From contig CALUNJ010000005.1 of the NCBI GenBank assembly GCA_944321975.1, positions 1 to 49,950 of the forward strand: a stretch of DNA of 49,950 nt, given 5' to 3'. Shown piece by piece: positions 4,895-49,950 of this stretch. Position numbers and translations under genes: made by a program. This DNA is from an uncultured Paraprevotella sp. (lineage in GTDB: Bacteria > Bacteroidota > Bacteroidia > Bacteroidales > Bacteroidaceae). The notes under the pieces are model-generated. The model was not told the DNA's origin and did no database searches. It saw only the letters and a list, made by a program, of their open reading frames with translations. Every line of letters starts with the position of its first letter. Within the stretch, counting starts at the first letter, position 1.

Positions 4895-5320
4895 TTCCGG
4901 AGCGGTAGGAAACATAGCGGGAAGCGTTTCCCGCATTCACCACCAAGGGGAATGCCCCGTTTCACTTTTTTCACACGACAGGCCGTCGTGACCACCGTGC
5001 CGGATTTCTCCGGCATGGGAAGGCAATAGCCCTCATCGGGCTCCCATGCGAACCCGCCCTCTTCCCGTCCTTTTCCCTTCCGTAGGCTCCATTCCCAAGT
5101 CTATATCGTCCTATTTTAAGGAAAATCCTTATTTTGTTAATAATCAACAAAATAAATACATCTTGAAGCACTCGGGTTTTTCTCAGGCGATTCACTTTTT
5201 TTTCTCAAGCAAAAAAAATGTGAATCGCTTGGAGGAAATTTGCATTCCTCTTGAGAACGATTTTGTCCTATTCCGCCAAGCATCTTTTCCTTCACGAGGC
5301 AGTGGAAACGTCTTCCGCTT
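4895..5320 (+). repeat. Dispersed intergenic repeat, copy A
   Basis: First full-size copy of a repeat family that recurs at 22023-22512 and, in the opposite orientation, at 49640-49950. Left to right it holds: a hairpin GCGGGAA/TTCCCGC (4917-4934); a GC-rich block; the block TTCCCTTCCGTAGGCTCCAT; a hairpin ATTTTGTT-AATAATC-AACAAAAT (5131-5153); a long palindrome (about 5177-5233) built from CTCAAGCGATTCACA plus a T-run and its reverse complement; and a 3' block CTCTTGAGAACGATTTTGTCC. Its limits come from eye alignment with copy B. It lies between the convergent ends of argF' and waaA. The rest of the gap (5321-5478) shows nothing I can assign. No coding function is proposed. Confidence 0.8.
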
Positions 5321-5478
5321 CGGCACTGCAAACTTTTAGCTCCCGACACCAAAGATCTACTGGCCCTACCCCCCGCAGACTGCACAAAAAGGAGGGAACT
5401 GCCCCGTGCCCATGGAAATCCGGCCGGCACAGAAGGAAAAAGACGGAAAAGAGCAGCAATGGGGGGATGTGCAGCATT

Positions 5479-13090: not shown

Positions 13091-13150
13091 TATCGCTTGA
13101 GAAAAAAATGTGAATCACTTGAGAAAAAAATGTGAATCGCCTGAGAAAAG
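13091..13150 (-). repeat. Dispersed repeat core, direct-repeat form (copy D)
   Basis: Read on the minus strand, two units of CTCAAGCGATTCACA plus seven T (first unit CTCAGGCG, second CTCAAGTG) follow each other head to tail, and a third partial unit (CTCAAGCGATATTT) closes the array. The same unit forms the palindrome of copies A, B, C and E, but here it is in direct orientation. The long flanks of copies A and B were not recognised. It lies in the 484-bp gap between priA and the 13358 barrel gene. Confidence 0.75.
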
Positions 13151-21869: not shown

Positions 21870-21874
21870 CATCG

Positions 21875-21937
21875 TGTTTTTCATAGTATTAGATTTAAGG
21901 TTAACAAAGGTTGGGTCAGAGCGCTGACCCTTTTTTT
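21875..21937 (+). ncRNA. Candidate small RNA, about 63 nt
   Basis: A full promoter (21839-21869) is followed within 70 nt by a strong intrinsic terminator (stem GGGTCAG/CTGACCC, then seven T). Between them is the single-stranded-looking GATTTAAGGTTAACAAAG. No reading frame of useful length lies in the unit and no gene follows on this strand, so a free small RNA is the simplest reading. I believe similar promoter-leader-hairpin sequences occur elsewhere in Bacteroidales but cannot name a family. It could also be a transcript attenuated upstream of a lost gene. Confidence 0.5.
21913..21937 (+). terminator. Intrinsic terminator of the small transcription unit
   Basis: A perfect 7-bp stem GGGTCAG (21913-21919) and CTGACCC (21924-21930), loop AGCG, is followed directly by seven T (21931-21937). 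Confidence 0.85.
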
Positions 21938-22022
21938 ATGCCCGGACGTTTTTAAATGATGCCCCGCAAACGGCTCCGATAAGATTTCCCGGAAGCCCCG
22001 GGCCAGGCACATGCACACAGAT

Positions 22023-22512
22023 TTGCGGAGCAGCAGGAATTTCGCGGGGAACGGTTTTCCGCTTCCTTCCCAAGAGGGAAGCGCACTCCTTTTCATTTCT
22101 TTTCGCGCACGGTCGCCAAGCCCCCCGCCCCCTCGGCGAGATGCCCCGCCAACACGGCGGCCATCAGCGTCATCGCGGAGCCAACCCTTTAACCCACAGG
22201 ACTTCATGCCGGTAATCCCCCCTGCCGCCCCCATGTGGCCTTGCCCTCGTCGCAAGCCCCTTTTCCCTTCCGGTAAACCCCATTCCCCTGTCCATATCAT
22301 CCCATTTTGAGGGAAAATTTCATTTTGCTAATAATCAGCAAAATAAGTAATCCCTTGAAACATGCTGATTTTTCTCAAGCGATTCACATTTTTTTGGCTT
22401 GAGAAAAAAATGTGAACCGCTTGAAGCAGACTCGCGCTTCTCTTGAGGGCGATTTTGTCCTATCCCGCCACTCGTGTCCTTTTCTCCCATCACGGGCTGT
22501 AGAAAATACGTC
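22023..22512 (+). repeat. Dispersed intergenic repeat, copy B
   Basis: Second full-size copy, same orientation as copy A. It aligns by eye over its length: GCGGAGCAGCAGGAA (A has CCGGAGCGGTAGGAA); a hairpin GCGGGGAA/TTTTCCGC (22044-22062); the block TTTTCCCTTCCGGTAAACCC; a hairpin ATTTTGCT-AATAATC-AGCAAAAT (22322-22344); the palindrome at about 22369-22425; and CTCTTGAGGGCGATTTTGTCC. It lies 3' of the caspase gene that ends at 22610. It fills most of the 828-bp gap; 22513-22609 shows nothing assignable. Confidence 0.8.
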
Positions 22513-22609
22513 CGTCACCATCGCCAAAATTCGGGAGCATCCCACAAGAACCTTCTACACGCCCTTCACAAACCCAAACAGGCACTAATCTTCCACACTC
22601 CCATTCATC

Positions 22610-40400: not shown

Positions 40401-40462
40401 TTTTCTCAAGCGATTAACATTCTTTTCGCTTGAGGAAAAAATGTGAATCGCTTGAGAAAAAA
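40401..40462 (+). repeat. Dispersed repeat core, palindromic (copy E)
   Basis: CTCAAGCGATTAACATT (from 40405) and the reverse-complementary AATGTGAATCGCTTGAG (to about 40456) pair around a short centre, with T-run and A-run outside, the same core as copies A, B and C. Upstream, ATCCTATTGTGAG (about 40366-40378) matches the copy A/B segment TCCTATTTTAAG, but the ATTTTGTT hairpin is missing, so this is a shortened copy. It lies between comF and the pyrE promoter. Confidence 0.75.
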
Positions 40463-49600: not shown

Positions 49601-49638
49601 GCCGTCCCGGGGAAGAAGCCCCCGGGGCGGCTTTTTTT
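49601..49638 (+). terminator. Intrinsic terminator of the GH43 gene
   Basis: GCCGTCCCGGGG (49601-49612) and CCCCGGGGCGGC (49620-49631) form a 12-bp stem (one G-T pair), loop 7 nt, followed by seven T (49632-49638). 13 bp after the stop codon. Confidence 0.88.
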
Positions 49639-49639
49639 G

Positions 49640-49950
49640 GGGGGGAATTTCCAAGCGGGCAGAACAGGACAACATCGCGCTCAAGAGAAACGAAAAATTC
49701 TCTCAAGCGATTCACATTTTTTTCTCAAGCAAAAAAAATGTGAATCGCTTGAGAAAAACCCACGCACTTCAAAAAGCAATCCATTCCGTTGATTATCAAT
49801 AAAACAAACCACATTCAAAAAAAAATGGAATGATATAGACCTGGGAATGAAACTTACGGAAGGAGAAAGAAGAGGCGACGAGGGCAAAACCACATGGATC
49901 CCGCCGGAGCGATTGCCCTCCCACCGTATCTCTACATCCCCGCTATTTCT
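49640..49950 (-). repeat. Dispersed intergenic repeat, copy C (runs off the window)
   Basis: Inverted relative to copies A and B. Read on the minus strand it has the CCATGTGGTTTTGCCCTCGT block (B: CCATGTGGCCTTGCCCTCGT), CTCCTTCCGTAAGTTTCATT, a hairpin around GATAATC (49783-49805), the palindrome (about 49700-49757) and CTCTTGAGCGCGATGTTGTCC. The 5' part continues beyond the window end. It follows the GH43 terminator. Confidence 0.78.

Follow-up and report, generated by a model that had tools for sequence, protein, structure and literature searches.

Several intergenic regions of the window (the whole 49,950-nucleotide stretch of Paraprevotella DNA analysed here) carry the same repeat around a palindromic core, which raises the question of whether it is a non-autonomous mobile repeat, a structured RNA or a transcription-end element, the three options offered by the original prediction. 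All five copies named there are present, and the 15-mer CTCAAGCGATTCACA matches the window 10 times (≤3 mismatches), compared with a mean of 1.47 and a maximum of 6 in 100 shuffles. The first copy, placed at 4895-5320, is real, but its limits, as set by its two terminal repeats, are 4899-5366. The long copies are listed here as probable MITEs:

4899-5366, forward strand: probable MITE, copy 1; 468 bp; end scores 36 and 58; left-arm E 2.3e-51, right-arm E 6.5e-23.
5160-5255, forward strand: box array of copy 1, composed of ATCTTGAA, CTCAGGCG, CTCAAGCA, CGCTTGGA and CTCTTGAG in 22-bp steps.
13091-13150, reverse strand: armless array of two 22-bp units, head-to-tail.
22027-22547, forward strand: probable MITE, copy 2; with an intact terminal repeat on the left and a decayed end on the right.
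22352-22447, forward strand: box array of copy 2, composed of CCCTTGAA, CTCAAGCG, GGCTTGAG, CGCTTGAA and CTCTTGAG at 22352, 22374, 22396, 22418 and 22440.
40401-40462, no strand assigned: armless array, with the palindromic form at 40405-40456.
49650-49950, reverse strand: probable MITE, copy 3; truncated by the contig end (49950); left-arm E 9.8e-17.

The left end of copy 2 has 2 mismatches in 24 positions (left-arm E 1.6e-39), and its right arm (E 3.2e-8, model positions 1-90) is traceable to approximately 22547. The core of copy 3 (49702-49753) matches the 52-mer with 0 mismatches; no right arm was detectable by the arm profile in this copy, nor were any arms detectable by the arm profiles in the short copies at 13091-13150 and 40401-40462. 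None of the four ORFs overlapping copies 1 and 2 matched a Pfam or PHROGs family.

The genome to which the window belongs (2.65 Mb in 171 contigs, 85.9% complete) contains 309 matches to the 22-nt unit (≤3 mismatches; 0 control matches), 267 to the 15-mer (≤2 mismatches; 1 control match) and 55 to the 52-nt palindrome (≤3 mismatches; 0 control matches). A census of 392 kb, comprising the window and whole or near-whole contigs, revealed 34 loci, which extrapolates to some 230 array loci per genome. Of 222 candidates 40 were scored against copy 2, which aligns with 39 further long copies at identities of 72-84%, and profiles built from the arms, with the core excluded, give 18 right-arm and 20 left-arm matches (E ≤0.01) within the 392 kb; because of these two results the claim that the copies share long flanks as well as a core stands. 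The repeat family is real, and far bigger than the window shows.

The "palindrome" is two boxes within an array of four to five boxes having an exact 22-bp period. Pairs of CTTGAG-type 8-bp boxes number 99, 67 and 32 at distances of 22, 44 and 66 bp, respectively, compared with 0-6 at any other distance from 9 to 99. At all 34 census loci at least four boxes, in either orientation, lie in 22-bp register (≤2 mismatches); the layout is palindromic at 22 of these loci and takes other forms at the remaining 12. The palindromic core and the head-to-tail form described in the original prediction both exist, but as variants of this one array and not as separate structures. Within the box, T, C, G and G at positions 2, 3, 6 and 8 are conserved in 61-62 of 62 palindromic cores, while positions 1, 4, 5 and 7 vary. 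Core variants coexist in the genome, including palindromic and tandem layouts, middle boxes either way round, and both CTCAGGCG and CTCTTGAG boxes. A motif, GTCCTATT, is found in the consensus of the left and of the right arm, flanking the array, and is better conserved than its surroundings. A type IIG enzyme, BpuEI, recognises CTTGAG and cuts 16/14 bases away; recognition site and cut distance together give the 22-bp period, which may be due to chance.

The long form ends on both sides in an inverted repeat of approximately 24 bp, GGAGCAGTAGGAATTTAGCGGGGA. With thresholds of 30 and 36 for the terminal repeats (maxima on reversed sequence, 24 and 26), 59 distinct copies, drawn from the retrieved parts of the genome, retain both ends in 14 cases, the right end only in 21, the left end only in 10 and neither in 14. 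Comparison of the 8 bp outside either end showed agreement at 58 of 112 positions in the 14 two-ended copies (null approximately 0.30; permutation p 1.5e-4). Other duplication lengths gave p values of 0.005 (5 bp), 0.034 (9 bp) and 0.048 (3 bp), all remaining lengths between 3 and 12 exceeding 0.05. Individually the flanking 8-mers agree at 7 or 8 of 8 positions in three of the 14 copies and at 6 or fewer in 11; the copy at C1:17697 has CATCTTCT on each flank, and copy 1 agrees at 4 of 8. ISL3 elements produce 8-bp target duplications, and the 8-bp duplication of the repeat agrees with the length expected for an ISL3-type source.

A candidate for such a source is found within the genus. The terminal repeat taken from the end of contig C2 occurs in 7 of 18 genus genomes; in the window's genome at least four contigs end in it. 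In genome G012 these ends bound an intact insertion sequence, which scores 528.5 bits against NF049917 and 120.6 bits against NF049916; its transposase matches PF01610 (DDE_Tnp_ISL3) with E 3e-52, and its score against the general NCBI ISL3 model NF033550 is 153.8, under the cut-off of 180. An ISAon1-type two-ORF transposase thus adjoins MITE-like ends in this genome. The right-arm profile, built from the window's genome, matches insertion-sequence ends in G012, G008, G007 and G013 (E 1e-5 to 7e-5). The repeat shares with the ISAon1 family its terminal repeat, GGGGCAGTAGAAATTT...GGGGAT, together with some 60 bp at the right end, but carries no transposase, and its interior is unrelated in the profile matches, which cover right-arm model positions 41-105 only. 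In the window's genome the transposase is present only as a fragment, 94% identical and with one stop, at a contig edge. In G012:C9, L167 and L180 the 3′ part of the ISAon1-type transposase together with its end is duplicated directly behind the intact copy. A literature search on ISAon1 returned nothing, and one linking ISL3 and MITEs nothing pertinent.

Both loci that can be aligned on two flanks in the sister species (G007; 81% identity over 49 kb of hits) lack the insert, the lengths being 557 bases in the window's genome and 168 in G007 at one locus and 468 and 39 at the other; these empty sites are not base-exact. From the terminal repeats, the 8-bp duplication, the insertion-sequence homology and the two empty sites we therefore conclude, with high confidence, that the long copies are MITEs whose ends are of ISAon1 type, within the ISL3 superfamily; among the options first offered, the non-autonomous mobile repeat is thus borne out. 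The MITE would be a non-autonomous relative of an ISAon1-type insertion sequence that has kept the terminal repeats of its parent, and, to judge from the homology of the ends, the transposase of a full-length copy could mobilise it in trans. It would have spread in this Paraprevotella lineage and then decayed copy by copy.

The closest known system is BrickBuilt, an intergenic Bacteroidales MITE of Porphyromonas gingivalis in which a 23-nt internal repeat lies between a leader and a tail (PMC4596501); it was also the only system returned by a literature search on Prevotella MITE repeats, a search on miniature inverted-repeat elements of Paraprevotella returning none. That account describes 1 to 22.8 units per element, IS5-type ends and 19 copies in strain ATCC 33277; it reports no full leader or tail without the repeat, and three copies having the repeat with neither (PMC4596501). 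Our element works like BrickBuilt in being a strictly intergenic Bacteroidales MITE with a repeat of approximately 22-23 nt between an end-bearing leader and tail. It is not filed as BrickBuilt because it differs from it in several respects: the ends are of ISAon1/ISL3 type and not IS5-type, the period is 22 bp with boxes in both orientations in place of a 23-nt direct tandem repeat, and there are four to five boxes at approximately 230 loci. The Correia or NEMIS elements of Neisseria are likewise MITEs with terminal repeats, approximately 107-204 bp in length, one form of which has an internal IHF site and is almost solely intergenic (PMC10969869, PMC2229807). They differ in their ends, and no phased box array is reported in the available parts of these accounts (PMC10969869, PMC2229807). 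They show that a protein site can form part of a MITE.

The core and the remainder of the element differ in conservation. In the 35 of 59 copies that keep the right end, from which all of these figures derive, identity to the consensus is 96.7% in the two 14-nt spacers, compared with 77% in the right arm, 73% in the left arm and 67% (median 73%) in the right terminal repeat. The arms are star-like (mean pairwise value 0.67), and the decay of a core is not predicted by that of its arms (r -0.30). Of 38 arm-only profile matches, 36 (right, 17 of 18; left, 19 of 20) adjoin an array, although the profiles were trained on core-bearing copies and may be biased towards these; of the other two, one is the insertion-sequence end on C2 and one a weak match (E 4.6e-4). 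At the 13 of 34 census loci where no arms were detectable the unit is almost as well conserved as elsewhere (mean best mismatch 1.08 versus 0.81), and one array, at C1:26383, has degraded spacers.

Because the terminal repeats and duplications decayed in the same copies in which the spacers did not, these data, which come from one genome, suggest that the core is kept up after insertion. We surmise from this genome that the array is probably kept by selection. The element carries an array of 8-bp CTCnnGnG-type boxes, four to five in number and oriented either way, spaced at exactly 22 bp, or approximately two helical turns, and the persistence of the array while arms, terminal repeats and target duplications erode would reflect that selection. 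One alternative is that the core is kept for transposition and has no role once the MITE has inserted. Every ordinary MITE feature is present, and the BrickBuilt authors made a similar suggestion, that the autonomous element may require the internal repeat (PMC4596501). The terminal repeats, however, are also needed for transposition, and these have fallen to approximately 67% and the duplications have decayed, whereas the spacers remain at 97%; moreover, 13 of 34 loci keep the array without detectable arms. We therefore regard an element with no role after insertion as rather unlikely.

As had been claimed, the repeats lie between genes. Using a simple codon-score gene caller, 27 of the 34 loci could be placed (7 could not), 13 of these at convergent, 13 at co-directional and one at divergent junctions, and 0 of the 27 inside a called gene. 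The element-free gaps of at least 60 bp number 23, 56 and 35 in the same three classes, so that the location is biased at divergent (Fisher p 0.0027) and convergent (Fisher p 0.0058) junctions; this bias is explained by promoter avoidance alone. The suggestion of a transcription-end element is correct as to location, since 26 of 27 placeable loci lie beside the 3′ end of a gene, but is not supported as to terminator function. No terminator-like site is listed in the cores of copies 1 and 3; copy 2 has a weak five-pair stem only (22435-22451), adjoining the core. Terminator-like stems are located just outside copies 2 and 3 (21913-21930 and 49601-49631), although for copy 3 such sites are approximately as common in shuffles. 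A Bacteroidetes FopS paralogous sRNA (RF04319, 78.7 bits) is found at 21874-21940, ending approximately 90 bases before copy 2.

A transcribed hairpin that protects or ends transcripts on the 3′ side of genes would agree with the position of those 26 loci, each flanked by the 3′ end of one gene or more. The palindrome can form a 22-bp stem, one copy folded alone gives a z score of -5.1, and in the alignment folding of 51 of the 62 palindromic copies double-sided changes in the core stem number 2, where shuffles give 0.39 (sd 0.63), and of 969 cells 13 are broken, where shuffles give 18.7 (sd 1.8). Across the 62 cores there are 25 double changes in the stem, 22 of them pairing, compared with 12 expected under independence. 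Against these stand 57 unpaired changes that give a G-U pair on neither strand, more than the 22 compensated ones (a further 53 are of the G-U type), and the 12 of 34 loci that are non-palindromic and yet keep their units. The alignment folding revealed no conserved structure in the arms; the three Rfam matches in the window at gathering score all lie outside the copies, and copy 2 gave only sub-threshold matches of the miRNA/snoRNA type. Of the structured RNA first suggested there remains a weak core-stem signal, with no conserved arm fold and no Rfam family in the copies. Pairing may matter somewhat, but the box and spacer letters are conserved also where long stems cannot form, and an RNA element is in our judgment unlikely.

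Gene conversion or templated repair, in place of selection, might also keep the cores alike. The numerous near-identical short tracts in one genome would provide for this, and the paired changes in the palindrome could reflect templated repair; strong homogenisation, however, should erase the distinct core variants that coexist here, and we consider this explanation improbable. A REP/BIME-type repeat spread by a RAYT (Y1) transposase, which would likewise present many short intergenic palindromic units in one genome of one species, is very improbable, given the exact 22-bp box period, the MITE arms, the ISL3-type ends and 8-bp duplication of the long copies, and the failure to find a Y1 transposase in the window's genome (85.9% complete), where PF01797 gave no match, in contrast to 5 of 14 control genomes in which it did. 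We favour, with moderate confidence, an account in which an ISAon1-related MITE carries a selected array of 22-bp boxes with a predicted role in phased protein binding.

Of 17 other genus genomes, two (G007 and G013) contain the exact 15-mer, the remaining 15 being at control level; with up to three mismatches the 22-mer gives three units in G007 and one in G013. At the same stringency it is found in 9 of 201 family genomes, namely the window's, G007, G013 and six with a single match at three mismatches. Copy 2 as query added two marginal matches, in G002 and G014 (E 0.007-0.009). A wide distribution was considered and rejected: the exact 21-mer gave six stretches only in genome_contigs, a scan from which the window's genome is possibly absent. 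Three of these are in two Paraprevotella MAGs, one is in a Gastranaerophilales bin, and two are in Lachnospiraceae and Solibacter, neither of which has an array around the match. The Gastranaerophilales stretch (L101; CALUSA010000165.1, 1-3322, 3.3 kb) carries a copy of the repeat with a right arm (E 8e-6). Because 2 kb at its other end are 96% identical to G013, this contig probably belongs to Paraprevotella and was misbinned. Alignment to the corresponding locus of G013 fails over its first 715 bases, so that it provides no base-exact pair of filled and empty sites. An origin from phages, plasmids or viruses was likewise rejected: viral_contigs contain no exact 21-mer, the phage records no match to the repeat, and the plasmids short partial matches only, in 10 records (E 0.04-0.5).

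The sister species G007 has an arrangement of its own, in which CGGGGCTCGG-type boxes at 21-22 bases are separated by A/T-rich spacers; eight loci were found in 387 kb, and the repeat is seen at the G007 loci L155, L187, L190, L192, L196 and L200-L203. A 33-base pattern of this array matches 63 times in G007, 6 times in G013 and not at all in the remaining 16 genus genomes, among them that of the window. Locus L155 is bounded by two ISAon1-type ends separated by 779 bases, while G007:C7:8794 has a left end and a poorer candidate for the right one (8 mismatches in 26); in these two and in L187 the array begins 370-390 bases after the left end. In 14 copies from G007 and G013 the repeat of approximately 600 bp is about 95% conserved throughout (array 0.96, flanks 0.94 and 0.96), so that the G007 array is not better conserved than its flanks, which counts against upkeep. 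The parallel is one of architecture; the boxes are unrelated, and we make no claim of a shared descent of the arrays or of ISAon1 ends on every copy.

As to what the array in the window's genome does, we tentatively propose that it is a phased site for a predicted DNA-binding protein at gene-to-gene junctions. This binding, like mobilisation in trans and upkeep by selection, we infer rather than compute. A wider and more doubtful proposal is that a MITE would have delivered a species-specific phased array to approximately 200 junctions, at which selection would keep it; the sister species would then present a parallel case, the putative binder may turn over together with its arrays, as a rapidly evolving system of sites across the chromosome in Bacteroidales, and BrickBuilt might be another instance. 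If the arrays do bind a protein, this genome would offer hundreds of natural replicates of the seeding of chromosome-wide sites, regulatory or architectural, by mobile DNA. Most bacterial MITEs have been regarded as litter in the genome, or now and then as promoters; at many sites of this genome, the cargo seems to have outlived its vehicle, and a relative has a similar layout in other letters.
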